A DNA stretch of 64,000 nucleotides from Bacteroidetes bacterium GWC2_46_850 (GTDB lineage: Bacteria > Bacteroidota > Bacteroidia > Bacteroidales > Dysgonomonadaceae), in assembly GCA_001768325.1 (NCBI GenBank), contig MENQ01000016.1, positions 62,001-126,000 of the forward strand. The letters are read 5' to 3'. The notes below the pieces were generated by a model. It worked only from the letters and a program-made list of their open reading frames with translations. It was not told the DNA's origin and searched no databases. The translations under genes were made by a program, and so were the position numbers. This document shows, one piece after another, positions 3,319 to 20,938 of this stretch; position 1 is the first letter of the stretch; every line of letters begins with the position of its first letter.

Positions 3319-4620
3319 ATGATTAATAAAAATACGGTTGTTTTATCAAGATTGATTATGGTATTGGCTTTGTTAAATCTTATGATTTCAAATGCTCAGA
3401 ATCCTATTCCACTAAAAAATAGTCAATCATCTGTCGTAATTGTAAATAACATAAAGCCTCGGCGCGGCACATCACAGGGATTGCCCAATACACGTCTGCA
3501 TTACACACCGGGGAAGCCCGTCAAATATTGGTCGTTGGCCACGGCAGCCAGTATCATGGCACGTTACCCCGATTATCGCGAAGCGTACTGGAAGCCATGG
3601 TCGTATGTGCAGGGATACATGTTCCATAGTTTTGAAATGTTGTACCGTCTCACTGGAGACAGGCAATACATGGATTTTATAAAAAAATATATCGATAATT
3701 TTGTGGATGAGCAAGGTAACTTCCATGGGGATAAGCTGACCAACCTGGATAATATAATGACAGGCAACAGCATTGTAGGTTTGTATGAATACACAAAGGA
3801 CAATCGGTATAAAATCGCTGCCGATCAGTTTAGAAAAGCATTTGACACGTATCCGCGAAGTGCGGATGGTCAGTTCTGGCATGGGGATAAGTCTCCCAAT
3901 ATGTGGATCGATGGCGTCTTCATGGGACAAATGTTTTTAATCAGATATGGAAAATCAATCGGCGACACCGGCTATTGTTTCGATGAAGCTGCCCGCCAGG
4001 TGCTGGTCTGCGCAAAGCATTTACGAAAAGAAAACTCCGGCCTGTACCTGCACGCCTGGACCGAAAAACCGGAGTCGGTGAAATGGGCAGACCCCAAAAC
4101 CGGACTCTCACCCGAGGTATGGAGTGAAGGGATGGGCTGGTTTGCTTTGGTCGTAGCCGAATTACTGGCAGAAATGCCCCAAACTCATCCGAAATACAAT
4201 GAAATTAAAAACATATACCTGGAGATGGCGGCGGATCTGAAAAAGCAGCAGGATAAAAAAACAGGCGGCTGGTATATGATTGTGGACAAAGGCAACCATC
4301 CGGACAACTGGATTGACCCGTCGGGTACCGGAATGTTTTTGTATGCTCTGCAAAAAGGGATCGAATTGAATCTCATTTCTCACAGAGAATACAATCCCGT
4401 TGTGAAAAAAGCATACAAATGTCTGATTTCGTTTGCCAAAATCAACGAAAGAGGATTGGTGGACATTGAAGGAGGGGGCGACGGGATTTCCGTGAAACCG
4501 GATTATGAGACCTATGTACACTATAACAGAACGACAAACGCAAAGGAGACCGTCGGCGCCTTCCTGTGGGGAACCACGATCATGGAGAAGCCGAAAAAAG
4601 AACCAGGAAACAAGATTTAA
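3319..4620 (+). CDS. GH105/GH88-type unsaturated uronyl hydrolase
   Basis: This 433-residue exported protein (signal ending near MISNAQ) belongs to the six-hairpin unsaturated glycuronyl hydrolases. Key features are the helical repeats, NMWIDGVFMGQMF with candidate catalytic Asp198 (equivalent to the YteR aspartate), and EVWSEGMGWFALV. The last is a variant of the usual W-x-RG-x-GW, with Glu in place of Arg. KKTGGWYMIVDKG and PSGTGMFLYAL close the barrel. It would act on unsaturated oligosaccharides released by the lyases encoded at 9087 and 11864. It is separated by 29 bp from the GH29 gene and 50 bp from the next GH28. It is a distinct paralogue of the truncated gene at the window start. 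Confidence 0.85.
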   Translation: MINKNTVVLSRLIMVLALLNLMISNAQNPIPLKNSQSSVVIVNNIKPRRGTSQGLPNTRLHYTPGKPVKYWSLATAASIMARYPDYREAYWKPWSYVQGYMFHSFEMLYRLTGDRQYMDFIKKYIDNFVDEQGNFHGDKLTNLDNIMTGNSIVGLYEYTKDNRYKIAADQFRKAFDTYPRSADGQFWHGDKSPNMWIDGVFMGQMFLIRYGKSIGDTGYCFDEAARQVLVCAKHLRKENSGLYLHAWTEKPESVKWADPKTGLSPEVWSEGMGWFALVVAELLAEMPQTHPKYNEIKNIYLEMAADLKKQQDKKTGGWYMIVDKGNHPDNWIDPSGTGMFLYALQKGIELNLISHREYNPVVKKAYKCLISFAKINERGLVDIEGGGDGISVKPDYETYVHYNRTTNAKETVGAFLWGTTIMEKPKKEPGNKI

Positions 4621-4670
4621 AACGCAAGACATCAGAAATAATCAATATAAAAATAAATAATTATCCTGAT

Positions 4671-7532
4671 ATGAGAACTTTCCCATTTATATTACCCCTG
4701 TGCATCTTTATTATCATAAATACAGAGGCAATATTGGCGAAAAATACCGGTAAGCCTTTCTTCGGTGCGCTTTTGCCAGAGAAACATGTTTATCATGAAA
4801 CACCCGATTCACTTATTCTCATTACGGGCCTGACCCAAGAGTTTACAGTAGATACGCCCGAAAACGAGGGAATAACCACTACGGCCTTCCGAGTAGAGCA
4901 GCTGTTGAAAGCAGTGGATAGTGATGCGGAATTCATGTATGCAGTCTTTCATCCGTCGGGAAGGAAAAAGACAGATGGATCTTTTGAACCGGGCGATTAC
5001 ATTGAAAAAGTGAATAGAATAACGGGGAAAAAGCAGACACGGAAAGTCGGGTTACAGCGTGCTGCCCTCAGGGGTAAGCTCTTATTGGAAATGTCCCGGA
5101 TGACAGTGGGTAGCAAAAACGATATTATACTGAATTTCCATGCCGGCCAACGTTCGCCGATGACGGAAGTGGTTATCACCATTCCCGAAGGGATACGCAT
5201 AACCCCGGAAAATACGTATATCAATGTGATCGGCCGCGGTGAAGTATTACTGAAAGATCTGCCCAACCAGTCCATTGGTCGTACGGGTACGAATTATTCC
5301 TATCGCCAGGTGGGACGTGTGGCAATCAATGAGAATGAAACCAGCGGACAACAGCTGATCATCTCAAATCTCGACTTCAGGCCGGCAAACGGAGCCGACT
5401 TAGTTATCCGCATTCAAAATCCGGGTATACAAAAAACGGGACAGTATCTTTTCTCGTCGCGCTACAAAACTTCAGCTCCTGAAAGTTGCACAAGTCCCGG
5501 TGGAGGGATGGAAAACGCGACGTTGACGGTAGTCAATGAAATCAGCGACTTTGTCAGAATCATGCCACGACCAAAAAAATATGAGAAAGCGGTACTCACA
5601 ACAACCGAATTTTCATGGACGCCGGCCAAAAATGCTTCCAGGGTCAATTTATTACAATCGACTGATAAGGGAAAAAGCTGGCAAAAAGCCAACGCGATCA
5701 TTGATCCATCAAGTGATAAGGCAACAATCAGCGACCTGACCCCTAACCAGCTGTATGCATTCAGGCTTGAAGTCAAAGATGGATCAAACCGGGGAAGTTC
5801 CAACATTGCCTGGCATTATTCGGGCATGCTGGATGTGAAAACGATGGGCGCAACGGGAGAGGGAAAAACCGACGACACGGAAAAAATCAACGAAGCATTG
5901 GCCTTCATGAATGAGATTGGGGGTGGCATCGTGCTATTTTCAGGAGGACAATACAACGTGCGGACCCTGCACCTGCAAAGCAACGTCTGGCTCTACATCG
6001 ACAGGGACGCTACCATTCAGGCCATTGAAGGTAGCGACGAACCGGAAGCTACCTGGTTCAGCGATCTTGCCTATCGTTCGGGATTATCACCCACCGATCC
6101 GAAGCCCTATCAGGATCCCGAAAATTATCTGACAAAACAGGATGTGGGACACACCTTCTTTCGCAATGCGATGTTCTTTGCAGAAAGGGCGGATAACATC
6201 AAAATTATCGGCAACGGCTATATCACCGGAAATGGAGTTTTGGCTACTTCCGATCGTGTAATGAACAATGCACCCGGTAGAAGGGCAGACAAGATGTTCG
6301 CTTTTAAATTGTGCACCCATATCGAGATTGGCGGACTTGACAACGGAAAGGATCTGTGGTACGACCCTGAAAAAGATTTGCCTTACTATATCAACGGCAA
6401 CGGACACGACGACAGTAATATGCTGCAAATAGACAGAGGGGGGCATTTTGTACTCCTGGCTACCGGGACCGATCACATCTATGTGCATAACACCTATTTT
6501 GCCAAAAAAAACAGTGGCAATGCGCGTGACATATACGACTTTATGGCATGCAACAACGTGACGGTAACCAATATTTATTCAAAAATCAGTTCCGATGATA
6601 TCGTGAAATTGGGATCAGATTGTGCGTTGGGATTCACCCGTCCAGTAAAAAACTATTGGGTACGAAATATCATTGGAGATACCAACTGCAACCTGTTTCA
6701 AATAGGTTCCGAAACAGCCGACGATATTCAGGAGGTGTATGTGGACAATATCTATGTACTCGGATCAAATAAAGCCGGATTCTCCATCTCTACCAACGAT
6801 GGAGCCCATATAAAAAACATCCATCTGAATAGCGGGCGTACAGGAAGCATCCATTCACGTTCGGTGATGCACCGAACAAGGGCACCTTTCTTTTTCTCCA
6901 TTTCAAACAGAGCGCGCGTTATCGGCGCAGATGTGGAAAAGTTTTCATTTAATGAGAACGGGACAACGCGTAGTGAACTGTTGGCCACAAACGTAAACAT
7001 TGGAAGTATAGAAAATATTACAATTCATGGAATCGATATTTCAGAAGTATATGGGGGGAGTTCTTTCCGCGGTGACCGATGGAAACCATATGACGGATCT
7101 CAAAATAAGGCGTCAGCGATCATTGCAGGGTATAAATTACCCGATGATGCCGATGTGGAAGGAGGACTCACCTTCAGGTTGCCAAATGGACAACACACCG
7201 GGTACATCGAAAACATTCGCTTCAGCGACGTGAAGATGACGGTAAAAGGCGGTCACGCAGCCGCCGATGCCGGATTGATCCCCCCGGAATTGGGTGTAGG
7301 CCGTTACAACGTGTCCGATTTCAAGATTCAACCCGCATATGGTTTTTGGATACGCCACGCAAAAGGACTGACGATGAAAGATTGTATGATCAGGACGGAA
7401 GAAGCCGATGGTCGCTATGCCGTGGTACTGGATGATGTACACAAAGCCGATGTAATCGGATTAAAGGTTATAAACGAAGGAATCACGGGTGAAAAAATAA
7501 AAACCATTCGTTCTTCCAGGATCAACTATTGA
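4671..7532 (+). CDS. Large exported GH28-type beta-helix glycosidase with FN3-like domain
   Basis: This 953-residue protein starts at ATG 4671, where a signal begins (RTFPFILPLCIFIIIN). An in-frame start at 4566 lies inside the preceding gene and is rejected. Residues about 1-290 form an N-terminal beta region. FSWTPAKNASRVNLLQS with LTPNQLYAFRLEV (about 300-380) looks like a fibronectin type III fold. From about 385 the pectin-lyase-fold barrel begins (VKTMGATGEGKTDDTEKIN). SSDDIVKLGSD carries Asp642-Asp643, matching the GH28 catalytic DD motif; the canonical NTD and GHG motifs are not recognisable. Family members cleave galacturonides or related uronates. The long insertions imply an unusual branched substrate. 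Confidence 0.75.
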   Translation: MRTFPFILPLCIFIIINTEAILAKNTGKPFFGALLPEKHVYHETPDSLILITGLTQEFTVDTPENEGITTTAFRVEQLLKAVDSDAEFMYAVFHPSGRKKTDGSFEPGDYIEKVNRITGKKQTRKVGLQRAALRGKLLLEMSRMTVGSKNDIILNFHAGQRSPMTEVVITIPEGIRITPENTYINVIGRGEVLLKDLPNQSIGRTGTNYSYRQVGRVAINENETSGQQLIISNLDFRPANGADLVIRIQNPGIQKTGQYLFSSRYKTSAPESCTSPGGGMENATLTVVNEISDFVRIMPRPKKYEKAVLTTTEFSWTPAKNASRVNLLQSTDKGKSWQKANAIIDPSSDKATISDLTPNQLYAFRLEVKDGSNRGSSNIAWHYSGMLDVKTMGATGEGKTDDTEKINEALAFMNEIGGGIVLFSGGQYNVRTLHLQSNVWLYIDRDATIQAIEGSDEPEATWFSDLAYRSGLSPTDPKPYQDPENYLTKQDVGHTFFRNAMFFAERADNIKIIGNGYITGNGVLATSDRVMNNAPGRRADKMFAFKLCTHIEIGGLDNGKDLWYDPEKDLPYYINGNGHDDSNMLQIDRGGHFVLLATGTDHIYVHNTYFAKKNSGNARDIYDFMACNNVTVTNIYSKISSDDIVKLGSDCALGFTRPVKNYWVRNIIGDTNCNLFQIGSETADDIQEVYVDNIYVLGSNKAGFSISTNDGAHIKNIHLNSGRTGSIHSRSVMHRTRAPFFFSISNRARVIGADVEKFSFNENGTTRSELLATNVNIGSIENITIHGIDISEVYGGSSFRGDRWKPYDGSQNKASAIIAGYKLPDDADVEGGLTFRLPNGQHTGYIENIRFSDVKMTVKGGHAAADAGLIPPELGVGRYNVSDFKIQPAYGFWIRHAKGLTMKDCMIRTEEADGRYAVVLDDVHKADVIGLKVINEGITGEKIKTIRSSRINY

Positions 7533-7604: not shown

Positions 7605-9071
7605 ATGACAAACAGAAGAGATTTTATAAAGAAAACGGGCATCGGAATCTTGGCGTCTACTATTCCGAAAGAGATATTGTCGGCAGCCGGTTCATTTGTC
7701 GTACAGCAGGAACCTGCCAGACCGGCAACAGCGTATAACTGGAGACCGGATACAATCAACCAACCCATTGGTGTGGCGCAAGGTATATACCCAGGACGGG
7801 TAGTCTGGTCGCATGCTCCGGGAGCAGCCCATTGGAATGGCAATTGGGAGTCGATGGATAGTCCGTGGTGGCTCGATGAGAACACAGACCAACAACGTGT
7901 AACAACCATGGTGGCCAACGTCATCACGAAACTGAGCGGTAAGAAAGAGTTCAGTCAGGCATGGAAAGCTATTTTCGAACATCATAACCAGTCGGTAGGA
8001 CGCCCAAAACAGGGTTATCAGAAAGGCGAGATGGTGGCGGTAAAAATCAATATGAACTCCACCAACCGTCCGGAGCGGACTAACAATTACACCGATGTGG
8101 CTCCACAAACCGTATACGCTGTGATAGAACAGTTGGTAAAATACGTCGGCGTACCGGAAGACAAAATATTGGTGTACGATGGCAAGCGTTACATTTACAA
8201 TGCCGTAACACGTAAAGTTTGGAACGATTTCAAAGATGTACGTTTCATACAGGAGAAAGAATTTACCGACGAACAGAAACACCCGATATATGGTGACCAC
8301 AGCCGTTTAGAAATGCCCCGTTGGGTGAAGGCAATAGCATACTCGAACGGGATCGATTACGAAAAGGCATCTCAGATACCCGAACAGGTACGGGAAGCAA
8401 CCTACATCATTAATCTGGCTATGCTGAAATGCCATTCATATCCCTATTCGAACATGGAAAAGGGAGACGAAGGACAAACAGCTGTAACCATGATCGGCAA
8501 GAATCATTTCGGTTCAATACTTGGTCCTTCGGAATTGCATGGAGTAATGAATACCAACCGCGATGCCAAGCCAAAAACTTATTCACCACTTGTTGATCTT
8601 GCAGCATCGTCAGCCCTTGGCAGAAAAACCATACTTTATATGCTGGACGGGCTATATTGCGCCAGGAAACACTCCTCCTACGCCATACATTTTCCGAATG
8701 CACCTTTTTTCAATAAGATATACCCATACGCCAACCCGGAATGGCCGTCATGTATCTTGGCTTCCCTGGATGGTGTGGCGCTCGATTCCGTTGGATTGGA
8801 TATCCTCTATTCGCAGACAAAGAATAACATAGACGTGGACAACCAAAACCGTCCATGGATGCTTATCCGGGAAAATGCCGACGATTATCTTCACGAAATG
8901 GCAAATGCGGAGAATCCGCCTTCGGGTACGAAATATATCCAAAACGGTAAACCGCTAGCCAGCCTCGGGGTACATGAACATTGGGACAGTGACGAATCCC
9001 GTCGTTATTCACGCAATCTCGATCCCACAAAGGGAAAAGGTATTGAATTGATCTACAATAAAATAAGTTAA
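7605..9071 (+). CDS. Tat-signal DUF362 domain protein, function unknown
   Basis: This 488-residue protein begins NRRDFIKKTGIGILAS, a twin-arginine signal, so it is likely exported folded and perhaps with a cofactor. The body matches DUF362: VAVKINMNS, DILVYDG-like KILVYDGKRYIYN, INLAMLKCHSY, TAVTMIGKNHFGS and a late VALDSVGLDIL. The family was defined on proteins near ferredoxin domains, but no CxxCxxC cluster is present here (only isolated Cys in LKCHS, LYCAR and WPSCI). It sits between the GH28 and PL6 genes, 72 bp and 15 bp away, so a role in acidic polysaccharide processing is inferred from context only. The enzymatic activity is not known. Confidence 0.8.
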   Translation: MTNRRDFIKKTGIGILASTIPKEILSAAGSFVVQQEPARPATAYNWRPDTINQPIGVAQGIYPGRVVWSHAPGAAHWNGNWESMDSPWWLDENTDQQRVTTMVANVITKLSGKKEFSQAWKAIFEHHNQSVGRPKQGYQKGEMVAVKINMNSTNRPERTNNYTDVAPQTVYAVIEQLVKYVGVPEDKILVYDGKRYIYNAVTRKVWNDFKDVRFIQEKEFTDEQKHPIYGDHSRLEMPRWVKAIAYSNGIDYEKASQIPEQVREATYIINLAMLKCHSYPYSNMEKGDEGQTAVTMIGKNHFGSILGPSELHGVMNTNRDAKPKTYSPLVDLAASSALGRKTILYMLDGLYCARKHSSYAIHFPNAPFFNKIYPYANPEWPSCILASLDGVALDSVGLDILYSQTKNNIDVDNQNRPWMLIRENADDYLHEMANAENPPSGTKYIQNGKPLASLGVHEHWDSDESRRYSRNLDPTKGKGIELIYNKIS

Positions 9072-9086: not shown

Positions 9087-10439
9087 ATGATTATGAAGAT
9101 ACGATATGGTGTTATTATTGGTTTATTATTAATTTCCGCTTTGCAAGGTGTTCAGGCAAAAATATATCCTGTCGCAACCCTGGAAGAATTTAACAAAGCA
9201 GTACCCACTCTGGTCCCGGGAGATGAGATTGTGCTAAAAAACGGAGTATGGAGAGATGTGGAACTTCAGTTCTTTGGCAAAGGGTCTCCGGAAGCTCCCA
9301 TTATATTAAGAGCCGACGCTCCCGGAGAAGTCCGCCTTGAAGGAAGATCAGACTTGAAATTAAGTGGCGAATATCTTCATGTATCGGGATTGGTTTTCAG
9401 GAATGGGTATACACCTTCAAGCAGCGTGATTGAATTCAGGAACAAGAATGAAGTGGCAAACAACTGCACAGTTTCAAATTGTGCAATAGAAGGATTTAGT
9501 AATCCGGATAAGAGCAAAAACGATTTTTGGATACAGATAAACGGTAAAAACAACACGGTAGAATATTGCTCCCTCTCGGGGAAGACCAACAAGGGAATGA
9601 CCCTCACGGTGCGGTTGGATTCCTTGACAAGTACGGAAACCAATCACCATATTTATCGCAATTACTTTGGGAAAAGAGAACCCTTGGGAGAAAATGGTGG
9701 CGAAACTATTCAGATTGGCCTTTCTCAGACTTCACACCTGAACGGCTGGACAAAAGTAGAAGAAAATTTCTTCGAGCAGTGCGACGGGGAGTTGGAAATC
9801 ATCTCGGTCAAATCGTGTGAAAACATGATTATCAACAATGTATTTAAAGAATGTAGAGGAATGCTCACGTTAAGGCACGGACACCGGAACATGGTCTACG
9901 GAAACATTTTTCTGGGAAATGGCGTGGAAGGAACGGGCGGTGTACGTGTAATCAACGAAAACCAGAAAGTATTCAACAATTTCTTTTCCGGACTACGGGG
10001 AAGAGGAGTCAGCAGTGCCCTGGTTTTGGTAAACGGTATACCCAACGCAAAACCAAAGGAGTATGATCAGGTGAAAAACGCCGTAATCTTCAACAACACC
10101 TTTTACGACTGTTCAATACCTTTTCAGTTTGGCCACGGAAATGGCCCAAACCGCAACATGCGTCCGCTGAATACAGTTATCGCAAATAACCTTGTTTACT
10201 GTATAAATGAAGATAGTTTAATTCAGACTTACGATAAAACAGACGGCATCAGACTGGAAAATAACCTTATGATAAGCAGAAATGGGAAAATGAAGGGTAA
10301 CAATATGGCCGACGGACAGGTTACGTTGATCAAAAAAGATGATCTGATGATCCCTGTATCTCAATCGGTAGGAGTTTTGCCAAACAATACGCTCCTCGAT
10401 AAAAGCAAATATGGTCCAGCCTGGTGGCAAAAAAAATAA
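9087..10439 (+). CDS. PL6 polysaccharide lyase (alginate lyase/chondroitinase B type)
   Basis: This 450-residue parallel beta-helix lyase is exported (signal ending at LQGVQA; ATG at 9093 is an equally good start). The N-terminus KIYPVATLEEFNKAVPTLVPGDEIVLKNGVW is typical of PL6. Counting from 9093, Lys240 in ISVKSCENM and Arg261 in TLRHGHRN sit 21 residues apart, the same spacing as the catalytic Lys250/Arg271 pair of chondroitinase B. NGGETIQIG supplies probable calcium or substrate ligands. PL6 enzymes cut at uronic acids (mannuronate, guluronate or iduronate) by beta-elimination. In this island it would generate unsaturated ends for the GH88/GH105 hydrolases. Which uronate it prefers is not visible. 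Confidence 0.88.
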   Translation: MIMKIRYGVIIGLLLISALQGVQAKIYPVATLEEFNKAVPTLVPGDEIVLKNGVWRDVELQFFGKGSPEAPIILRADAPGEVRLEGRSDLKLSGEYLHVSGLVFRNGYTPSSSVIEFRNKNEVANNCTVSNCAIEGFSNPDKSKNDFWIQINGKNNTVEYCSLSGKTNKGMTLTVRLDSLTSTETNHHIYRNYFGKREPLGENGGETIQIGLSQTSHLNGWTKVEENFFEQCDGELEIISVKSCENMIINNVFKECRGMLTLRHGHRNMVYGNIFLGNGVEGTGGVRVINENQKVFNNFFSGLRGRGVSSALVLVNGIPNAKPKEYDQVKNAVIFNNTFYDCSIPFQFGHGNGPNRNMRPLNTVIANNLVYCINEDSLIQTYDKTDGIRLENNLMISRNGKMKGNNMADGQVTLIKKDDLMIPVSQSVGVLPNNTLLDKSKYGPAWWQKK

Positions 10440-10444
10440 AAGCA

Positions 10445-11818
10445 ATGAAAGAAAGGATTTTAATTATTTCAATTTTATTTGTTTTCTGTAGCGCATTGGC
10501 AGCAGGAAAAGATTTTAATGTCAAAGATTTTGGAGCGAAAGGAAATGGGAAAACCATGGATTCTCCAGCTATTCAAAAGGCAATAGACAGATGTGCCAAA
10601 AGTGGCGGAGGAAGAGTAATTGTTCCCCAAGGTACCTATCTTTGTGCAACCATTGTACTGAAAGATAATGTGACACTTTTCGTTCAGAAAGATGCACTCC
10701 TACTGGGAACAACGGATATAAACGCTTACAAAAATCTGGATCCCTTTACCGAAGGATTGGGTATTGAAGTCGGCTCTGCATTTATCGTTGCGATAGATGC
10801 GAAGAACGTCGGGCTGGAAGGAGAAGGGATAATCGACGGACAAGGCTCCGCATTGAAAGCGAAACATATTGAAACAGACACGAGGCCCGAAGGCCAGCGA
10901 TGGGGATTAAGGCCCTTTTTGTTGCGTATCGTGCGGTGCGACGGGGTAAAAGTAAAGGACATTACCCTGAAATATGCCGGGGCATGGACATCTCACTATT
11001 TCCAAAGCAGAAATATTGAGATTGATAATGTCAAAATTCAAAGTGTGGGTGTAGCCCATAACGATGGCATCAACATCGACGGCTGTCAGGAAGTCAGCAT
11101 ATCAAATTGTGATATCGTGAGCGGAGATGATGCACTCTGCTTTAAATCGACATCCGCGAAAATGCCCTGCAGGAACATCGTTGTGGACAATATGCGTCTG
11201 AAAAGCAATCAGGCAGGGATCAAAATGGGCACAGAGTCGATGGCTGGTTTCGAGAATATTAAAATTACAAATTGTCATATCTATGATACCAAAAACGGTG
11301 GAATCAAGCTTTTCACGGTCGATGGCGCAAAACTGAGGGACATTATCATTGAAGATATCACCATGGAGAATGTGAGGACGCCCATGATGTTCCGGCTTGG
11401 AGCCCGACTGAATGTTTTCAGAAAAAACGAAGATGTACAACAACCCATCGGTTTATTCGAACGGGTATTGGTCAAAAATGTAAAGGCTGTTGCAGACGAT
11501 AATTCGCAGCTAAACCCTCCAACCGGAATATTAATCACCGGCATCCCGGGCCATTACATCACCGACCTGAGATTGGAAAATATTGAGATCACCTTGTTGG
11601 GTACGGGTACCGAAGAGCACGCGGAACGTGTGGTACAGGAAGCAATTTCGGAGTACCCGGAGGTGAAGACGTTTGGTCCCTATATTCCTGCCTATGGCAT
11701 ATGGGCCCGTCATGTGAAGAACCTGGTGCTTAAAAACGTAACATTCCATTTGAAGAATCCCGATTTTCGACCGGAATTCATCTTTGATGATGCAGAGAAA
11801 GTGGAGATACACCGATAA
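10445..11818 (+). CDS. GH28 polygalacturonase-family glycosidase, exported
   Basis: This 457-residue protein starts at ATG 10445 with a signal peptide (KERILIISILFVFCSALAAG). It lies only 5 bp after the PL6 stop; an in-frame start at 10424 overlaps PL6. The family hallmarks are VKDFGAKGNGKTMDSPAIQKAID at the barrel start, N206-D-G-I-N-I-D212 (variant of NTDGID) and SGDDALCFKS with Asp228-Asp229. NQAGIKMGT replaces the usual GHG box and GGIKLFT stands for the RIK box. Family activities include exo- and endo-polygalacturonase, rhamnogalacturonan hydrolase and xylogalacturonan hydrolase. The altered GHG box speaks against a plain endo-polygalacturonase. It probably acts in the periplasm on uronate oligosaccharides. 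Confidence 0.88.
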   Translation: MKERILIISILFVFCSALAAGKDFNVKDFGAKGNGKTMDSPAIQKAIDRCAKSGGGRVIVPQGTYLCATIVLKDNVTLFVQKDALLLGTTDINAYKNLDPFTEGLGIEVGSAFIVAIDAKNVGLEGEGIIDGQGSALKAKHIETDTRPEGQRWGLRPFLLRIVRCDGVKVKDITLKYAGAWTSHYFQSRNIEIDNVKIQSVGVAHNDGINIDGCQEVSISNCDIVSGDDALCFKSTSAKMPCRNIVVDNMRLKSNQAGIKMGTESMAGFENIKITNCHIYDTKNGGIKLFTVDGAKLRDIIIEDITMENVRTPMMFRLGARLNVFRKNEDVQQPIGLFERVLVKNVKAVADDNSQLNPPTGILITGIPGHYITDLRLENIEITLLGTGTEEHAERVVQEAISEYPEVKTFGPYIPAYGIWARHVKNLVLKNVTFHLKNPDFRPEFIFDDAEKVEIHR

Positions 11819-11863
11819 CACACTGACAATGAATGAATATAATAACAAATTAATAAATTAACT

Positions 11864-13033
11864 ATGAGAACTTTTTTTACATTGTTGCTTCTGGCCGTGT
11901 CCCTCCTTCTTATGAAGTCTTGTACCAAGGTCGATCCGGTGACAAAGATTGTACAGGATCAACTAAAAGAGGAAATACTGAAAAGGGCGGAGAGTAACCT
12001 GAACGAACAACCCATCACAGTAACTGCTTTTCGGAGCGAAAGAAGCGCGGGAGGAAGTCATGATTTTTATTCGGAAGGCGATTACTGGTGGCCGGATTCG
12101 TTAAACCCGGAAGGGCCCTATGTACAACGTGACGGCCAGACGAATCCCGACAATTTTGTGGCACACCGGCATGCAATGATCCGGTTCAGCACATTGGTCG
12201 GCAACCTGACGTCGGCCTATCTGCTGACAAAAGACCGGAAATATATTGATGCTGCACTGGTACATGTACGGGCCTGGTTTATCAACGAAGAGACCCGAAT
12301 GAACCCGAGTCTGCTTTATGCACAGGCAATCAAAGGCATCACAACCGGTCGAGGAATAGGGATTATCGATACCATTCACCTGATTGAGGTTGTGCAATCG
12401 TTATTAAAAATGGAAGAACAGGGATTACTATCGGAAGAGGATATGGAAGGTACCAAACGCTGGATTTCCGAGTATTTGACGTGGCTGACCACGCATCCGA
12501 ATGGAATAGCCGAGATGAATGCACAAAACAACCACGGCACTTGCTGGGTGATGCAGGCTGCCATCTTTGCAAAATATACCGGCAACAAGGAAGTGCTGGA
12601 TCTCTGTTCAGATAGGTATAAAACAGTTCTTCTGCCGGATCAGATGGGAACAGATGGAAGTTTTCCTCGTGAGTTGCGCAGAACCAAACCATACGGATAT
12701 TCACTTTTTAATCTCGATGCCATGGCTACGGTTTGTCGGATATTGTCGACAGAAGAGGATAACCTGTGGGCATATACCACACCGGACGGAAAAAATATAC
12801 AGAAAGGGTTTGATTTCTTGGTGCCCTTTGTCATCGATAAATCCGCGTGGGAATATAAACCCGATGTAATGTACTGGGATGAGTGGCCTGTCGCGCAACC
12901 TTTCCTTTTCTTCGGGGCAATCGGATTAAAGAATGAAACATACCTTGAGGTGTGGAAAACACTCGACCATTTTCCTGAAAACGACGAGGTGATCCGCAAC
13001 CTGCCCATACGCAATCCAATCATATGGTTTTAA
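11864..13033 (+). CDS. Alginate_lyase-domain (PF05426) lipoprotein lyase, PL5/PL38-like
   Basis: This 389-residue protein has a hydrophobic leader ending in LLLMKSC, an atypical lipobox, so it is probably a lipoprotein. The fold is an all-helical toroid: DYWWPDSLNPEGPYVQRDG, MIRFSTLVGNLTSAYLL, LLYAQAIKGITTGRGIGIID and GTDGSFPRELRRTKPYGYSLFNLD. AQNNHGTCW contains Asn222-Asn223-His224, matching the Asn/His neutraliser and base region of alginate_lyase-domain enzymes. PL5 members cut polymannuronate and PL38 members cut polymannuronate or glucuronan. Placement in PL38 is inference. It follows GH28 by 45 bp and precedes GH31 by 45 bp. It complements PL6 as a second lyase of a different fold. Confidence 0.8.
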   Translation: MRTFFTLLLLAVSLLLMKSCTKVDPVTKIVQDQLKEEILKRAESNLNEQPITVTAFRSERSAGGSHDFYSEGDYWWPDSLNPEGPYVQRDGQTNPDNFVAHRHAMIRFSTLVGNLTSAYLLTKDRKYIDAALVHVRAWFINEETRMNPSLLYAQAIKGITTGRGIGIIDTIHLIEVVQSLLKMEEQGLLSEEDMEGTKRWISEYLTWLTTHPNGIAEMNAQNNHGTCWVMQAAIFAKYTGNKEVLDLCSDRYKTVLLPDQMGTDGSFPRELRRTKPYGYSLFNLDAMATVCRILSTEEDNLWAYTTPDGKNIQKGFDFLVPFVIDKSAWEYKPDVMYWDEWPVAQPFLFFGAIGLKNETYLEVWKTLDHFPENDEVIRNLPIRNPIIWF

Positions 13034-13078: not shown

Positions 13079-15214
13079 ATGAAGAAAATAATATTGAGTG
13101 TAACCTTCTTCCTTACAGCGTTGTTAATTTCGGCACAAGTGAACTGGCAACAGGTGGAACCTGGTGTTTGGAAAGGAATTGTGGGAACTCCCGAGGCATA
13201 CTCTTTATTGGGTGTGGCCGGTATTTCCCCGCAATCCGAGGCGTTAAAGAAAATGCCGGATGTAAACTTTCCTGCATTCGGGAATGAGGTGGTGGGAGCA
13301 GTATCCGACGGCAAAACATCGTTGCGGATACCGCTGGTAAGAGGAGAGCAATTGTATGGCTTTGGGCTGAATTTTCAGACAGTGCATCAGCGGGGAAAAA
13401 TTCTGAACCTGCATGTGGATCATTACGGTGGGAAGGATAACGGACGGACACATGCGCCGATTCCCTTTTACGTTTCCAGCCAGGGATACGGCGTATTGGT
13501 GAATTCCGCCCGCTATCTGACGGTTTACGCAGGAACAGGCGTCCGAAAAGATAGCCCCAATGCCCCTGTTGCACAAGATAGAAATACCGATAAAAAATGG
13601 TCGTCACGTCCCTATTCCGATGCTGTGGAGATCCTGGTCCCCGCCGAAGGTGTGGAAATTTACCTGTTTGCAGGTCCTACCCCAATGGACGCGATCCGCA
13701 GGTATAACTTATATTGCGGTGGAGGCACCCTTCCTCCACGCTGGGGATTGGGTTTTACCCAGCGTACACAACGACTTTATACCGATGAGCAGGTGAAGGA
13801 AGAGGTGGCACTGTTTGAAGAAAAAGGGTTTCCACTCGATTACATCGGTCTGGAACCGGGGTGGCAAAGTAAAGCTTATCCTTGCACGTTTGAATGGGAC
13901 AAAGGAAGATATCCCGATCCGGCAGGTTTTGTAAAAGAGATGGCGGAGCACGGCGTGCGCATCAATTTATGGACCAACCCCTATATCTCTCCGGCATCCG
14001 GCATTTATAAGGAGATGGTTCCGCTAAGTGGTTCACACACGGTTTGGAACGGAATTATTCCCGACTTTTCTTTGGAAAGGACACAAAAAATATGGACGGG
14101 AAAACTGAAAAAAGAGCACGTGTCCATCGGCGTCAGCGGTTATAAAATTGATGAAGTAGATGGTTATGATCACTATCTGTGGCCGGATGTAGCAACCTTC
14201 CCTTCCGGGTTAAGTGCAGAACAGATGCGTCAGACCTATGGTTTATGGGTCCAGAAAATAACTGCCGATATGTACCGCGAGCAAAATGTAAGAACATTTG
14301 GTCTGGTAAGAGCTTCCAATGCAGGTGGAAATTCTATGCCCTACGTCATCTACAACGATTATTACAGCCATGAAGATTTTATCACCGCATTAATCAACAG
14401 CGGGTTCAGCGGTGTACTATGGACGCCGGAAGTCAGGGGTTCCAAAACCGGTGAGGAGTGGTTAAGACGGTTCCAGTCGGTGGTTTTTTCACCCATGGCC
14501 ATGATCAACGCCTGGTCCAGCGGAACAAAACCCTGGTCGTTCCCTGAGGTAAGCGAAAGCGTAAAAGAATATGCCCTTCTGCGGATGCAGATGATGCCCT
14601 ATTGGTACACCGAGTTTGCAAAGTATCGTTTTGAAGGCACTCCTCCCTTTAGAGGGATGAACCTGGAGCCGGGTTTCAATGTAAAGGTGACCGAAGAAGT
14701 TCTATCTCAAAATCTGGAAGACAATCCTTATTTGGAAGCTGTAAACAAAGAAGTAAAAGACCAGTATATGGCCGGGGAATACCTCCTGGTGGCTCCCCTG
14801 TTTGTGGGTCAGGAATCACGCAACGTGATCCTCCCCCAAGGAAACTGGTATGACTTTTACACGGGCGAATATGTCGGAAATGGTGAGGTTATCACCGTAA
14901 CACCCGGGTTGGAGAAAATACCGGTATATGTGAAAGATGGCGGCATCATACCCATGATGGCTCCCCTGTTGCACGCACCGAAAGCGGGTGATATAGTCGA
15001 TCTTGAAGTCCGTCATTACGGGACAAAACCAAACAGCTATTTGCTTTACGACGACGATGGCGAAACATTTGATTATGAGAAGGGAGCATACTCCTGGAGA
15101 ACGTTGACGGTGAAGGCAGATAAAAAGAACAGACTGATTGGAGAAATCTCCAAAGCAGAAAAGAACAAGCCTAACACAATCGGCAAAGTAAAGTGGAAAT
15201 TCATGACAAAATAA
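13079..15214 (+). CDS. GH31 alpha-glycosidase, exported
   Basis: This 711-residue enzyme has a short signal (KKIILSVTFFLTALLISAQ). An N-terminal beta-sandwich (to about 200) precedes the catalytic barrel starting at PRWGLGFTQRTQRLYTD. The nucleophile is Asp358 in YKIDEVDG. Asp427 in IYNDYYSHEDF is the candidate acid/base, although the usual WxGD context is missing. The C-terminal beta domains include VAPLFV and QGNWYDFYTGEYVG. GH31 enzymes act on alpha-glucosides, alpha-xylosides, alpha-galactosides or sulfoquinovosides. The unusual acid/base setting (IYNDY rather than W-GD) resembles less-studied branches, so alpha-glucosidase should not be assumed. It overlaps nothing; GH36 begins 20 bp later. 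Confidence 0.88.
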   Translation: MKKIILSVTFFLTALLISAQVNWQQVEPGVWKGIVGTPEAYSLLGVAGISPQSEALKKMPDVNFPAFGNEVVGAVSDGKTSLRIPLVRGEQLYGFGLNFQTVHQRGKILNLHVDHYGGKDNGRTHAPIPFYVSSQGYGVLVNSARYLTVYAGTGVRKDSPNAPVAQDRNTDKKWSSRPYSDAVEILVPAEGVEIYLFAGPTPMDAIRRYNLYCGGGTLPPRWGLGFTQRTQRLYTDEQVKEEVALFEEKGFPLDYIGLEPGWQSKAYPCTFEWDKGRYPDPAGFVKEMAEHGVRINLWTNPYISPASGIYKEMVPLSGSHTVWNGIIPDFSLERTQKIWTGKLKKEHVSIGVSGYKIDEVDGYDHYLWPDVATFPSGLSAEQMRQTYGLWVQKITADMYREQNVRTFGLVRASNAGGNSMPYVIYNDYYSHEDFITALINSGFSGVLWTPEVRGSKTGEEWLRRFQSVVFSPMAMINAWSSGTKPWSFPEVSESVKEYALLRMQMMPYWYTEFAKYRFEGTPPFRGMNLEPGFNVKVTEEVLSQNLEDNPYLEAVNKEVKDQYMAGEYLLVAPLFVGQESRNVILPQGNWYDFYTGEYVGNGEVITVTPGLEKIPVYVKDGGIIPMMAPLLHAPKAGDIVDLEVRHYGTKPNSYLLYDDDGETFDYEKGAYSWRTLTVKADKKNRLIGEISKAEKNKPNTIGKVKWKFMTK

Positions 15215-15234
15215 CAACAGCTAATCAAAAAAAA

Positions 15235-17409
15235 ATGATTCGTAAAAATATAGGACTTTTCATCCTGCTGTTTACCTGTCTTGTCATACAGGCACAGGAT
15301 TCCCCTGTTGCAAAAAAGATATTCAACATCACATCGGGAGAATTGAAACTGACGTTGATGGTGGGTAACGATGACCGGCTTTATCAGCTTTACTTTGGCA
15401 ATGCAGATGTCAATGTAGAAATACCAAAGAAGCTTCCTACACGTGAATGGGAATTTTTGCCACCCTATGGAAACGGGGTACTTACCGAGCCGGCTATCCA
15501 GGCAACACACGCCGACGGTAATACATCCACCGAGTTTCATTACGTGAACCACAAAACGGAAGCGCTGCCGGATGGACAGGAACTGACCACGATTTATTTA
15601 AAAGATCCGGTCTATCCATTTTATGTGGAAATCTACCTGAAATCGTATCCAAAAACCAATATCCTGGAGATATGGAATTCCATTTCACATGATGAAGAGG
15701 ACAAAATTACCCTGTATCGCTATGCTTCGGCATCACCTGTTTTAAAAGCCAAAGAGTACTGGATGACACAGTTTATCGGAAACTATAAACGGGAAGCAAC
15801 GCTATCAGAGGAAAAATTGTCGGAAGGGACGAAGATCCTTGATTCGAAACTCGGAATACGGGCAACGCAAATGCGCATTCCTTCCTTCTTGCTCTCTCTG
15901 AATCAGAAAGCAGAAGAAAACAGCGGTGAAATTTTTGGGGCATCACTGAGCTGGCCGGGCAGTTTTCAACTGGCTTTTGATATGGACTGGAATAAAAACC
16001 TGCGGGTCCTGACCGGTATAAATCCTGTGGGAGCACAGTACCATCTGTTGAAAGGGGAAAAATTTGATACCCCCCCCATTGTATGGGCATACAGCAGGAG
16101 CGGAAAGGGCGACATCAGTCGGAAATTTCATCGCTGGTCCACTGATTATGTCATCAGAGATCCACAGAAGGATCGCCCTATTTTACTTAACAACTGGGAG
16201 GCAACGCATACTGATTTTGATGAAGAGAAACTGACCGCTCTTTTTGAAGGAGCGCAACAGGTGGGTGCCGAGCTGTTTTTGCTTGACGACGGCTGGTTTG
16301 GAAATGACGAATTTTCCCGTGACGACGACAAGAGAGGATTGGGAGACTGGCAGGTTTCCCAGAAAAAACTACCGAACGGATTTTCTTATTTGGTGAAGGA
16401 AGCCAAAAAAAGAAACATTGATTTTGGAATCTGGATCGAGCCGGAAATGGTCAATCCCAAGAGTGCGCTTTACCAAAAACATCCGGACTGGATCATTACG
16501 CAACCAAAGCGGGAACCCATTCTGGGTCGAAACCAGGAGATTCTCGACCTGACCCGTCCCGAAGTACAGGCATTCGAATGGAATGTAATAAATGACATAT
16601 TACATCCCAATCCGGGCATAGCCTATGTGAAATGGGACTGCAACCGCTATGTGACACAACCGGGATCAAACTATCTTCCGGCAGACGAGCAAAGCCATCT
16701 TTTGATTGATTACAACCGGGAGTTGTTAAAGCTGATGGACCGTTTTGCCACGAACTTTCCCAATGTCATGGCAATGATCTGCTCCGGAGGTGGAGGTAGA
16801 GTCGATTTTGGTTCGCTGAAATACTTCCATTCATTCTGGCCAAGCGACAATACTGATCCGATTCAACGCGTAAAAATCCAATGGGGGTTTTCTCATTTCT
16901 TTCCGGCAAGCACCATCTCTTCGCACGTGACCCGCATGGGAAAAGCAAAAATGAAGTTTGCCATCGATGTGGCTTTGAGCGGAGCATTCGGCGTAGACCT
17001 CGCATTGGACAATGCCACACCCGAAGAACGCGAACAAATAGCGGAAGGGATCAGGATTTATAAAAGCACCATCCGTAATCTGGTGATGTCGGGAGAACAG
17101 TACCGTCTCCTCTCCCCGTATGACAGTCCCACCGCTTCATTGAGTTATGTTTCTCGAGACAAAGATCAGGCGGTCCTTTATATTTACCAGATCGAAGACG
17201 GGAACACTCCCACAATTTTCTTGAATGGCCTGAAAAAAGAAGGAGAATATCTCGTCAGGGAAATCAATCTTCCCAAAGGGGCTGTTTCGAAATTTCAAGC
17301 AAATGAGAAACAATTAACCGGCCTGGAATTGATGGAGAAGGGAATAGAAAATCCATTGACTAAAAAATACGAGAGTGCCCTATTTGAAATAAGTATAGTA
17401 AAAAAATAA
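15235..17409 (+). CDS. GH36 alpha-galactosidase, exported
   Basis: This 724-residue GH36 enzyme removes alpha-D-galactosyl (or GalNAc) residues with retention. ATG 15235 gives a clean signal peptide (RKNIGLFILLFTCLVIQAQ); an in-frame start at 15193 would overlap GH31. The N-terminal beta-supersandwich runs to about residue 320. The barrel opens with NNWEATHTDFDEEKL and LFLLDDGWFG. The nucleophile is Asp468 in KWDCNR and the acid/base Asp538 in PSDNTDPIQR, both canonical. GIWIEPEMVNPKSALYQ is also diagnostic. The next gene starts 4 bp after the stop, implying tight co-translation. Confidence in the family is very high. The natural substrate is probably a galactosyl branch of the same polysaccharide. 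Confidence 0.93.
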   Translation: MIRKNIGLFILLFTCLVIQAQDSPVAKKIFNITSGELKLTLMVGNDDRLYQLYFGNADVNVEIPKKLPTREWEFLPPYGNGVLTEPAIQATHADGNTSTEFHYVNHKTEALPDGQELTTIYLKDPVYPFYVEIYLKSYPKTNILEIWNSISHDEEDKITLYRYASASPVLKAKEYWMTQFIGNYKREATLSEEKLSEGTKILDSKLGIRATQMRIPSFLLSLNQKAEENSGEIFGASLSWPGSFQLAFDMDWNKNLRVLTGINPVGAQYHLLKGEKFDTPPIVWAYSRSGKGDISRKFHRWSTDYVIRDPQKDRPILLNNWEATHTDFDEEKLTALFEGAQQVGAELFLLDDGWFGNDEFSRDDDKRGLGDWQVSQKKLPNGFSYLVKEAKKRNIDFGIWIEPEMVNPKSALYQKHPDWIITQPKREPILGRNQEILDLTRPEVQAFEWNVINDILHPNPGIAYVKWDCNRYVTQPGSNYLPADEQSHLLIDYNRELLKLMDRFATNFPNVMAMICSGGGGRVDFGSLKYFHSFWPSDNTDPIQRVKIQWGFSHFFPASTISSHVTRMGKAKMKFAIDVALSGAFGVDLALDNATPEEREQIAEGIRIYKSTIRNLVMSGEQYRLLSPYDSPTASLSYVSRDKDQAVLYIYQIEDGNTPTIFLNGLKKEGEYLVREINLPKGAVSKFQANEKQLTGLELMEKGIENPLTKKYESALFEISIVKK

Positions 17410-17413: not shown

Positions 17414-19438
17414 ATGAAGAAACAGATTTTTTTGATTATATTTCTGTTGTTGCATGCCTATATGTTTGCTCAGGACGGAGACAGATGGAGCATACAGCAG
17501 GACGGTTCCATCCGATGGAAGATTGAACAAGGCAATATTCCGCATGTCGATCATCTTGAGATGAGCGGACAAATGCTATCGGTTGTACTGCGATACGGAG
17601 TAGACGCGGAAGGGGCTTTTCATTTGAACAGGAGCCTGGTCTTCCCGATGCTCAGGATGAAGCCGAATAAAACCCAAAGCAACCTGAAACAGCGTTTTGA
17701 TGTCAGCATTCCGGCGTTGATCACCGTGGAAGATAAAAGTTTAACAGATGAGAAGGTAAGTGACATCACATTCGATGGCATGCTGAAAGTTGAAAGCTCT
17801 TTCAGTTATATCAGTGGCAGAAGCCAGGTGAACGATGGAATTAAAATGACCCGGCAGCTTTATCCTTCCGCATTATCACCCTTCTATTGTGAAGAGTACG
17901 CTTTAGAAAACACGAAAGAGAAGCCTGTCACAATACGTATTCCGGAGTGGAAAATTGTCTATTCCACGCCAGATTCAGCAGGCGTGTATGGAGCGTACAG
18001 TGTCGAAGCACTGCTATCAAAAAAGGGAACATTTGTGCTGAAACCAGGTGAAAAGCTGGAGTTTTACGCGCTCTTTTCTGGTAGAAAAATCAATGAATCT
18101 CCTTATCTCTCCGCAAACATCGGGGCTGAGAAGGGGGCCCGGAAAAAACTGCTTGAACAATGGAGCAACAGCCTGGTGTTAAGTACCCCGGATCCCGTCT
18201 TAAACAGCATGTTCGAATTTGCAAAAATCAGGGGTGCAGAAAGTATATACAATACCAAAGGAGGTCTAATGCACGGTCCGGGCGGAGAATCATACTACGC
18301 CGCAATCTGGGCCAATGATCAGGCTGAATACATCAATCCCTTTTTCCCATACCTGGGCTATGACATCGCAAACGAGTCGGCATTAAACTCATTCCGCCAT
18401 TTTGCACGTTTCATGAATCCGGATTACAAACCGATACCTAGTTCCATCATTTCGGAGGGAGTGGGCACCTGGCATGGAGCCAAAGACCGGGGTGACGGTG
18501 CCATGATCGCCTACGGTGCGGCACGATATGCGCTCGCTCGCGGCAACAAAACTGAAGCGATGGAGTTATGGCCACTGATTGAGTGGTGTCTCGAGTTTTG
18601 CAACCGGAAACTGACACCCTCCGGTGTGGTAGCATCCGATTCCGACGAACTGGAGAACAGGTTCCCTGCAGGGGATGCCAATTTAACCACCTCCTGTTTA
18701 TATTTTGATGCTTTAAATTCCGCCGTCCTACTGGGTAAAGAGCTGGATGTGAATGTTTCCAGACTCAAGACTTACAATCAACAGGCCAAAGCGCTTGAAA
18801 AAGCCATCGAAAAACATTTTGGCTATGAGATTGAAGGATTTCACAGTTACAGATACTATGAAGGCAATGAAATACTTCGCTCCTGGATATGCATGCCTTT
18901 GACAGTAGGGATTTATACCCGTGCCACAGGGACCGTAGATGCCCTGTTTTCACCAAGGCTATGGACCGACAACGGCTTGTTGACACAGGCCGGCACGGAA
19001 ACTTTCTGGGACAGATCAACCTTGTATGCACTCAGAGGTACCATCGCTGCGGGAGAAGTGGAAAAAGGAATCAATTTCCTGAAAAAATATTCCCGCAAAA
19101 GATTGTTGGGAGATCATGTGCCGTACGCCATAGAGGCATGGCCTGAGGGGGAACAGCGCCATCTGTCGGCCGAAAGCGGACTGTATTGTCGCATTTACAC
19201 GGAAGGCTTGTTTGGCATACGCCCTACAGGACTAAGAAAGTTTGACATGACTCCTCACCTGCCCCAGGATTGGGACTTCATGAATTTGGAAAACATCAGA
19301 GCACATGAAACCAATTATTCTATATTTGTCAACAGACTGAATGATAATCTACTGGAGGTAACAGTCACAAAAGACAATCAACAACCCGTGATAAAAAAAC
19401 GGATTAAAGAAGGTGAAAAAATATCAGTACGTCTGTAA
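17414..19438 (+). CDS. Exported six-hairpin glycosidase-like protein, family unassigned
   Basis: This 674-residue protein has a signal peptide (KKQIFLIIFLLLHAYMFAQ). Residues to about 240 are beta-rich. The rest is an (alpha/alpha)6-type domain: GGLMHGPGGESYYAAIWANDQAEY, SSIISEGVGTWHGAKDRGDGAM, VASDSDELENRFPAGDANLTTS and a late HLSAESGLYCRIYTEGLFGIRP. Candidate acids are the Asp and Glu of WANDQAEY and the Glu of SDSDELENR, by analogy with GH15, GH63 and GH78 arrangements. I cannot assign it to a numbered family. It begins 4 bp after GH36 and is followed by a GH29, so it most likely removes another side-chain sugar. The function is inferred from fold and location only. Confidence 0.65.
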   Translation: MKKQIFLIIFLLLHAYMFAQDGDRWSIQQDGSIRWKIEQGNIPHVDHLEMSGQMLSVVLRYGVDAEGAFHLNRSLVFPMLRMKPNKTQSNLKQRFDVSIPALITVEDKSLTDEKVSDITFDGMLKVESSFSYISGRSQVNDGIKMTRQLYPSALSPFYCEEYALENTKEKPVTIRIPEWKIVYSTPDSAGVYGAYSVEALLSKKGTFVLKPGEKLEFYALFSGRKINESPYLSANIGAEKGARKKLLEQWSNSLVLSTPDPVLNSMFEFAKIRGAESIYNTKGGLMHGPGGESYYAAIWANDQAEYINPFFPYLGYDIANESALNSFRHFARFMNPDYKPIPSSIISEGVGTWHGAKDRGDGAMIAYGAARYALARGNKTEAMELWPLIEWCLEFCNRKLTPSGVVASDSDELENRFPAGDANLTTSCLYFDALNSAVLLGKELDVNVSRLKTYNQQAKALEKAIEKHFGYEIEGFHSYRYYEGNEILRSWICMPLTVGIYTRATGTVDALFSPRLWTDNGLLTQAGTETFWDRSTLYALRGTIAAGEVEKGINFLKKYSRKRLLGDHVPYAIEAWPEGEQRHLSAESGLYCRIYTEGLFGIRPTGLRKFDMTPHLPQDWDFMNLENIRAHETNYSIFVNRLNDNLLEVTVTKDNQQPVIKKRIKEGEKISVRL

Positions 19439-19488: not shown

Positions 19489-20931
19489 ATGAACAAAAAA
19501 CTATTTTTATTTCTGGCAATACTAATGATGTCGATCGCCTGTTTTTCTCAAAAACCGAATTCTGCCCTGGATTACAACGAAAAGATGAGTTGGTGGCGTG
19601 ATGCCAAATTCGGCATGTTTATCCATTGGGGTCCCTACTCGATGTATGGCGGAGTGTATAACGGATTTAACCAGCAACGCGGTGGCGCGGAATGGATCAT
19701 GAATCGCTGTAAAATTCCGGTAATGGAGTACCGGGCAAAGGCAAGTACCTTTAATCCGGTAAACTGGAATGCCGATGAAGTGGTGAAACTGGCAAAAGAG
19801 ACCGGAATGAAATACATGGTCTTCACGACCAAGCATCACGATGGATTTGCCATGTTTCAAAGCAATGCCAGCAATTTTAACATGGTGGATTACACCCCTT
19901 TCAAACGGGATGTGATTGATGAATTTGTGAAAGCATGCCGGAAGTATGACATGAAATTTGGCTTTTATTATTCACAGTCACAGGACTGGTGTAATTCCGG
20001 TGGTGCAACGGCTCGCAAACTGATGCACGAAGGCTGGCCAAACCCAGACTCGGTACGAATCAACGAATTTACGGCTGCCAACCGCGGTGCCTGGGATTGT
20101 CTGCAAACAGACAAAACCTTTGATGAATATTTTCACAGCGTGGCGCTTCCACAGGTAAAGGAACTTCTGGAGCGTTACAGCGATGTATCGGTCATCTGGT
20201 GGGATACTCCCATGTCGATCACGGATGAACAGGCTTCCAAATTACAAGAGGAGCTGGCTAAATATCCACAGGTAATTACCAACGACCGGTTAAAAAGGCC
20301 CAACTTCGCAGGTGATTTCAAAACACCGGAAGGCTTGATTCCAAAGGCGGAAGATATTGTGGGAGTAGACTGGGAAACTTGCATGAATATCGGTAGTTCA
20401 TGGGGATTTAAATCCTGGGAAGAAAAATGGAAATCACCCTACGAGTTAATCAAAAATCTGACATCGATCGCCGCACGGGGTGGAAACTATCTGCTGAATG
20501 TAGGCCCCACCCCGCTGGGAGATGTTCCCGATGAAGCAAAGACGCGGTTGCATGAGATGGGAAAATGGATGCAGGTATATGGAGAAGCAATTTACGGAAC
20601 GCAGCGAAGCCTTATTTATCCCACCTGGGGCGAATGTACGCGTAAGGATGTCGGAAACAAAACCGTGCTCTACTTGTGTGTCTCCGAGTGGCCAAAAGAC
20701 GGTAAACTGATTTTCGATGCAAACTACAAGGTCAAAAAAGCCTCTTTGCTGAATAATAACAGCACTCTAAAGGTGGACAGGAAAAACAGACAGATCACTA
20801 TCCAAGTCCCGCAGCAGGCTCCCAACAAGTATGTATCGGTAATAAAGCTGGAGTTAAACGAGAAACTACCCGTCAGCAAACTGATCTCCAACACGGCCAA
20901 ATATTTTGAAATCGTGGATGAACAAAAATAA
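19489..20931 (+). CDS. GH29 alpha-L-fucosidase, compact form
   Basis: This 480-residue exported enzyme (leader [17 protein letters not shown]; the Cys before FSQ could alternatively be a lipobox) has the GH29 motifs [28 protein letters not shown] and [11 protein letters not shown]. The nucleophile is Asp239 in IWWDTP. It lacks the long C-terminal domain of the GH29 at 1511, 23561 and 30652, ending soon after the small beta-sandwich ([21 protein letters not shown]). An insertion near residues 175-205 ([19 protein letters not shown]) is not seen in the other GH29 proteins here and may shape the +1 subsite. It is followed 7 bp later by GH95, so the two fucosidase families are probably translated together. 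Confidence 0.9.
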
Positions 20932-20938
20932 TTTAAAC

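Follow-up and report, generated by a model that had tools for sequence, protein, structure and literature searches.

A fucose-linked polysaccharide-utilization locus with PL6 and PL38-type lyases in Proteiniphilum: a candidate system for a non-alginate acidic heteropolysaccharide

We analysed a 64,000-nucleotide stretch (the window) from Bacteroidetes bacterium GWC2_46_850, covering positions 62,001 to 126,000 of the forward strand of contig MENQ01000016.1 (assembly GCA_001768325.1; probably genus Proteiniphilum; 3.75 Mb in 32 contigs). At 9087-13033, three plus-strand genes encode a PL6 lyase, a GH28 protein, and a second lyase with a PF05426 domain, here called PL38-type. The PL6 and GH28 genes overlap, and the PF05426 gene follows 45 bases further on. 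An initial annotation made from the letters alone had described two lyases flanking a GH28 at this site, and the Pfam matches bear this out (PF14592, 370 bits; PF00295, 73 bits; PF05426, 296 bits). The three genes belong to a polysaccharide-utilization locus (PUL) of about 69 kb, the island, in which all genes run in one direction. We favour, with a probability of roughly 60%, the reading that the island is a fucose-linked PUL for a non-alginate acidic heteropolysaccharide.

The island begins about 32 kb upstream of the window with genes for a GntR regulator, L-fucose isomerase (FucI), FucU, and an MFS transporter, followed by two SusCD pairs, a GH97, and a GH95-like gene. It ends with a GH95 gene at 37054, beyond which lie uvrB, formate-tetrahydrofolate ligase, and similar genes. 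With adjacent SusC and SusD genes (both pairs upstream of the window) accompanying carbohydrate-active enzymes (CAZymes), the island qualifies as a SusCD-type PUL. Its CAZymes include PL6, the PL38-type lyase, five GH29, GH95, GH31, GH36, GH2, and three GH88/105-type genes. The predicted count of five GH29 was correct (five PF01120 genes). "GH88 and two GH105" held for the number of genes, since three PF07470 genes are present, but the split was not recovered, because PF07470 does not separate GH88 from GH105; one of the three is cut by the left edge of the window (frame ending at 469), and the gene at 26878, the only one compared with solved structures, is nearest to the GH88 3wiw (359 bits). 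Similarly, one of "two GH28" is clear (10424), while the 988-aa protein at 4566 is just distantly GH28-like. The features of the island inside the window are as follows.

2-469, plus strand: GH88/GH105-type uronyl hydrolase, 3' part of a gene that starts upstream of the window (PF07470 152 bits; whole gene 209 bits)
1511-3289, plus strand: GH29 alpha-L-fucosidase-type 1 (PF01120 301 bits)
3319-4620, plus strand: GH88/GH105-type uronyl hydrolase 2 (PF07470 266 bits)
4566-7532, plus strand: 988-aa beta-helix protein, distantly GH28-like (PF12708 28 bits; NCBIfam rhamnogalacturonidase 175 bits, cut-off 500)
7605-9071, plus strand: DUF362 protein (PF04015 39 bits)
9087-10439, plus strand: PL6 lyase, one-domain (PF14592 370 bits)
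10424-11818, plus strand: GH28, rhamnogalacturonidase/polygalacturonase-like (PF00295 73 bits)
11864-13033, plus strand: PL38-type lyase (PF05426 296 bits)
13079-15214, plus strand: GH31, PsGal31A alpha-galactosidase type (4xpo 1128 bits)
15193-17409, plus strand: GH36 alpha-galactosidase-type (PF02065 347 bits)
17414-19438, plus strand: 674-aa protein lacking a Pfam match, possible (alpha/alpha)6 glycosidase (low-confidence model)
19489-20931, plus strand: GH29 2 (PF01120 283 bits)
20906-23521, plus strand: GH95 fucosidase/L-galactosidase-type (PF22124 594 bits; solved relatives 2rdy, 8zbv, 4ufc)
23561-25450, plus strand: GH29 3 (PF01120 252 bits)
25517-26860, plus strand: Gfo/Idh/MocA oxidoreductase (PF01408 49 bits)
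26878-28125, plus strand: GH88-type unsaturated uronyl hydrolase, probable lipoprotein (PF07470 42 bits; 3wiw GH88 359 bits)
28127-30595, plus strand: GH2, beta-glucuronidase-like (6d7j "Beta-Glucuronidase" 1218 bits)
30652-32439, plus strand: GH29 4 (PF01120 274 bits)
32577-34622, plus strand: GH29 5 with F5/8-type domain (PF01120 131 bits, PF00754 63 bits)
34622-37054, plus strand: GH95, second copy and last island gene (PF22124 604 bits)

Both lyases appear intact by sequence. The PF14592 domain of the PL6 protein scores far above its curated cut-off of 24 bits, and K242, R263 (21 residues apart; the initial annotation had noted a Lys/Arg pair at the chondroitinase B spacing), and H264 are invariant in all 19 PL6 sequences aligned from loci of this kind, of which one is partial. 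The three residues correspond to Lys-249, Arg-270, and His-271 of BcelPL6, whose exchange abolished activity (PMC6879350). Substrates of PL6 enzymes include mannuronate blocks, guluronate blocks, and dermatan sulfate (PMC4954714, PMC6879350), and the island enzyme is likely located in the periplasm. In the PL38-type protein, the predicted Asn-Asn-His motif (N222-N223-H224) is retained, and with R273 and Y279 it is identical in 81/81 rows, own row included. A possible lipobox Cys20 makes a surface lipoprotein probable.

Substrates reported for PL38 enzymes are alginate, beta-1,4-glucuronan, and glycosaminoglycans (PMC13027841, PMC11790493). In a tree of 35 chosen rows, which takes in part of the 80 loci described below (midpoint-rooted for drawing, with a long-branch warning, and built without CUL-I, TpPL38A, Aly38A, RiPL38, and Amuc_0771), the island PL38 falls in a clade of 22/35 rows, apart from the solved structures 8bdq and 3nfv and from the PL38 of an alginate-type locus in a sibling species, G030 (support 100/100). 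The G030 alginate-locus PL38 clusters with 8bdq (support 100/100), with which it shares 53% identity. We take both 3nfv and 8bdq to be PL38 enzymes. A second PL38 occurs within the same 21-kb stretch in nine loci (L053, L054, L059, L064, L095, L098, L101, L106, and L108); these copies are 32-37% identical, fall outside the island's clade, and directly adjoin GH2 in L095, L098, L106, and L108.

The island carries PL6 and PL38 with SusCD, and so falls within the alginate-locus definition of "PL6 and/or PL38 with SusCD". However, the PL17-like, cupin, and SDR genes of the G030 alginate-type locus had no blastp match (E 1e-5) among 42 island open reading frames (ORFs). G030 keeps the island in addition to its separate alginate-type locus, and the PL38 copies of the two differ. 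On these grounds we rejected a canonical alginate locus, which the initial annotation had named as an outcome that would undo its proposal. Its argument that the lyase pairing implies more than one uronate type was not supported. Bacteroides ovatus CP926 uses PL6, PL17, and PL38 all on alginate (PMC11381880), so a PL6-PL38 pair need not mean two uronates; in rumen alginate loci, PL6 and PL17 are likewise accompanied in some cases by PL38 (PMC13377030). A KduI homologue elsewhere in the genome counts in favour of the fucose-linked, non-alginate reading. We also rejected a sulfated substrate, as Pfam matched no sulfatase family in the 40 island genes scanned; nor did it match a rhamnosidase or classical pectate-lyase family in them.

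Of 37 genomes of the genus, some of them incomplete, five (counting this one) carry a closely similar PL6, in every case within the same island and ahead of the same uvrB-side genes. In Proteiniphilum L039, GntR-FucI-FucU-FucP directly adjoins PL38. A pattern scan confirmed at least 545 PL38 relatives, and the best 80 loci, chosen by PL38 similarity, were used. These span about 21 kb or less, mostly 10 kb each side of PL38 or to the contig end, with genes called by a longest-ORF method and presence defined by blastp at 35% identity (for PL6 of two other subtypes, any identity at E < 1e-15). The most often shared partners in view were GH88 (43/80) and GH2 (35/80), followed by GH95 (24/80), GH29 (22/80), and GH31 (21/80); PL6 (16/80), GH105-type genes (14/80), GH28 (9/80), GH36, PL8 (6/80), and PF14099 (3/80) were less often present. 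PL38, PL6, GH88, GH29, and GH31 occurred all together in 10/80. PL6 was found in 14/21 loci with GH31 and in 2/59 loci without it (Fisher 7e-9), and in 10/17 versus 2/58 when Proteiniphilum was excluded (Fisher 1e-6), values that overstate the evidence because loci from related genomes are not independent.

The order GH2-GH95-GH31-PL38-GH29-GH88, mostly then followed by PL6 and GH29, recurs in loci of Pedobacter, Niabella, Paraflavitalea, and Segetibacter, and relatives carrying the block core come from soil, rumen, and gut. Two Prevotellaceae metagenome-assembled genomes (MAGs), L068 and the buffalo-rumen Prevotella L074, pair PL38 with a GH105-type gene, GH28, GH31, and GH36, and SusC1/SusD1 of L074 are 57% identical to those of the island. 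With the core block found in several genera, we rejected the idea that the gene set is unique to this genome. The initial annotation knew of no described system that combines these families. The core block recurs in other genomes, and a literature search by title and abstract start among open-licence papers found no description of this set, which is weak evidence of novelty. In Pedobacter-type blocks, a PF14099 lyase-family gene lies beside GH88 (L109:14445-15281, L090:14264-15046, L092:14273-15058, and two copies in G313; assigned by Pfam for L109 and by blastp for the others) and would bring the lyase families of the block to three; its protein had no relative among solved structures at E 0.001. 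In locus L037, whose contig is titled Eubacteriales, the PL38-GH29-GH95 genes are 83-88% identical to those of Proteiniphilum, and the contig is probably mis-binned.

Other island enzymes give clues to the substrate, although all matches in the NCBIfam scan of island proteins were under cut-off. The GH31 residues W479, Y267, E359, R411, and Y425 match W486, Y274, E366, R418, and Y432 of PsGal31A by position, at a constant offset of 7 and without a printed alignment; PsGal31A was captured with fucose in subsite +1 (PMC9491548). The best solved relative of the GH2 (6d7j) is named beta-glucuronidase. The GH28 at 10424 reached 282 bits with the BT4146-type rhamnogalacturonidase model (cut-off 500), its best solved relative is an exo-polygalacturonosidase (114 bits), and it hints at galacturonate in the polymer. 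It looks accessory, since a GH28 homologue was in view in so few PL38 loci.

From the gene content, residues, PL38 clade separation, and co-occurrence seen in the loci examined, we infer the activities, step order, cell locations, and substrate as follows. SusCD pairs and lipoproteins would bind and import the polymer. The PL38-type lyase at the surface would cleave 1,4-linked hexuronate in the backbone, most likely glucuronate, by beta-elimination, and PL6 in the periplasm would cut the remaining oligouronides; the two probably act on one polymer. Judging by their nearest relatives, GH88/105 enzymes would take off the unsaturated end residue and GH2 saturated glucuronate. The five GH29 and two GH95 would release L-fucose or L-galactose from side chains, and GH31 and GH36 alpha-galactose, part of it fucose-linked as in PsGal31A. 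Released L-fucose would enter the FucP/FucI/FucU route encoded at the island start. Because GH88, GH2, and PL38 point to it, glucuronate is a predicted component of the polymer. From the five GH29, the two GH95, and the genes for L-fucose use, fucose seems to be a main product. We put forward with little confidence a bolder extension, that the island PL38 clade is of uncharacterised specificity and, with GH88, GH2, GH95, GH31, GH29, and PL6, forms an undescribed pathway over several Bacteroidota orders, the first dedicated system for a glucuronate polymer bearing fucose and alpha-galactose, zygomycete glucuronan for example.

Several results weigh against the proposal of a non-alginate fucose-linked PUL. 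The nearest solved structures of PL6 are the two-domain alginate lyases 8bwk and AlyGC 5gkd, and those of the PL38-type protein, 3nfv (192 bits) and 8bdq (143 bits), are both named alginate lyases. In G038, from another family, homologues of the island PL6, PL38, GH88, and GH2 lie in an alginate-type stretch with PL17-like and esterase genes, and one G038 PL38 sits inside the island's clade, on a long branch; part of the core may thus serve alginate there. The GH2 falls under the NCBIfam beta-glucuronidase cut-offs (LacZ4, 286 versus 950 bits; PRK10150, 177 versus 544 bits), and cell locations were read from signal sequences alone. In an independent draw not chosen by PL38, GH31 was searched in 296 genomes of the phylum (E 1e-200) and found in seven, own included. 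Among the three other genomes with at least 65% identity, only G313 carries the complete block, together with PL6 and two PF14099-like genes; the second has GH95-GH31-GH29 without PL38, and the third neither. Three further genomes (48-56% identity) show no PL38 in the vicinity, and in two of these the gene lies close to a contig end. This draw indicates that GH31 and fucosidases can occur without PL38.

An alginate locus with added fucosidases, in which PL6 and PL38 act on mannuronate and guluronate and the other enzymes on co-occurring brown-algal fucose polymers, would account for the names of the nearest solved relatives, for the G038 locus, for the joint presence of GH88, GH2, and PL38 in Dysgonomonas alginatilytica, and for the fact that the PL6 of L109, the only Pedobacter copy set against solved structures, is nearest to the alginate lyase 7o7a. 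We nevertheless consider it quite improbable: PL17-like, SDR, and cupin homologues are missing from the island ORFs searched, the alginate-type locus that G030 carries apart from the island has a PL38 of the 8bdq group, to which the island PL38 does not belong, and sulfated fucans would call for a sulfatase, a family not matched among the 40 island genes. We know of no part that a glucuronidase-like GH2 or three GH88/105 genes would play on alginate. On the other side, PL6, PL17, and PL38 together are a described alginate set (PMC11381880).

The remaining alternatives are versions of the fucose-linked, non-alginate PUL that differ in the polymer. Zygomycete exopolysaccharides consist essentially of beta-1,4-linked glucuronate with 9-25% fucose, 4-13% galactose, and 8-30% mannose, and one glycuronan has Fuc:Man:Gal:GlcA of 5:1:1:6 (PMC6433966). 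A fungal glucuronan or mucoran of this type (1,4-linked glucuronate with fucose, galactose, and mannose) would fit a lyase with GH88, glucuronidase, fucosidase, and alpha-galactosidase, PL38 glucuronan lyases exist (CUL-I and TpPL38A; PMC13027841), and some Pedobacter blocks add the PF14099 gene. It is unlikely as a specific identification, because the match is by composition alone, GH28 is unexplained, the PF14099 protein lacks a solved relative at that threshold, and relatives are present as well in genomes from the rumen and gut, where such a glucuronan is no evident food source. A pectin-like polymer or plant mucilage containing glucuronate, galacturonate, fucose, and galactose is a doubtful but conceivable candidate; L068 and L074, with their GH28-containing loci and the SusC1/SusD1 similarity, and the BT4146-type resemblance of GH28 speak for it, but the missing rhamnosidase and pectate-lyase families and the rarity of GH28 among the best loci do not. 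Bacterial polymers with glucuronate and fucose are common, and a capsule or exopolysaccharide of this kind would fit the habitat range. The fold of u513, a beta-helix protein described below, resembles phage depolymerases, with the Klebsiella K1 capsule lyase 7w1c ranked second. Those fold matches are generic for beta-helices, however, and one type of capsule could hardly account for a block that is found in several orders, so this source too seems unlikely.

If the non-alginate, fucose-linked reading is correct, a PL38 subfamily likely annotated as alginate lyase through its Pfam domain name would be set apart from alginate and linked to the fucosidase/galactosidase/glucuronidase block that recurs in Bacteroidota of soil, rumen, and gut. 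Alginate use would then be over-predicted in such bacteria, and the block would point to a widespread fucose- and uronate-rich polymer.

Some proteins in and around the island lack an assignment. The 674-aa protein (17414-19438) had no match in Pfam, NCBIfam, or solved sequences (E 0.1), and copies 51-61% identical occur in PL38 loci of Dysgonomonas (L066, L084) and Pedobacter (L112). Its AlphaFold model (pLDDT 62) reached TM-scores of at most 0.28 among the 50 matches shown, with a weak resemblance to GH94/65/95; a beta-sandwich plus (alpha/alpha)6 glycosidase of a new family is possible. The DUF362 protein (7605) has a 72% identical copy near PL38 in D. alginatilytica L066. Upstream of the window, u513 (contig G000:C16:34903-36444, L004:4903-6444) is a 513-aa beta-helix protein with no Pfam match that is related to the island DUF4955 protein. 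Copies 50-64% identical were found in 9/80 PL38 loci, one of them partial, and a model built on the Bacteroides copy L041 (pLDDT 83) gave generic beta-helix matches (TM at most 0.41 among the 50 shown); it is possibly a new lyase or hydrolase family. Also upstream, 43177-43878 of the contig (G000:C16; L004:13177-13878) encodes a 233-aa SusC-like protein with N-terminal and plug domains only, and 225-aa copies in G027, G025, and G018 indicate that it is not a random fragment. On the minus strand at 53656-63880, separated from the island by housekeeping genes, a cluster of GH2, two GH92, and a GH38-type gene probably serves alpha-mannosides.

Among known systems, the alginate PULs of Bacteroides are the first comparison. 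The island PL38 lies in another clade than 8bdq, which is presumably BoPL38 of B. ovatus, and relative to the B. ovatus and B. eggerthii PULs the island adds GH88/105, GH2, GH29, GH95, GH31, GH36, and L-fucose genes. It resembles the B. ovatus CP926 PULs in having PL6 and PL38 beside SusCD and a GntR regulator, but the CP926 and B. eggerthii PULs hold PL17 and KdgF (PMC11381880), while homologues of PL17, cupin, and SDR were not found among the island ORFs searched. In Pseudopedobacter saltans, PsGal31A (Pedsa_3617) is of the same type as the island GH31 (1128 bits) and shares its substrate-site residues; locus-tag numbers suggest that it lies near the PL6 Pedsa3628, which was reported as a poly-MG lyase (PMC4954714). 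The PL38 glucuronan lyases CUL-I and TpPL38A and the glycosaminoglycan-active RiPL38 and Amuc_0771 share the family name and glucuronate-polymer substrates, a likeness drawn by description and not by sequence (PMC13027841, PMC11790493).

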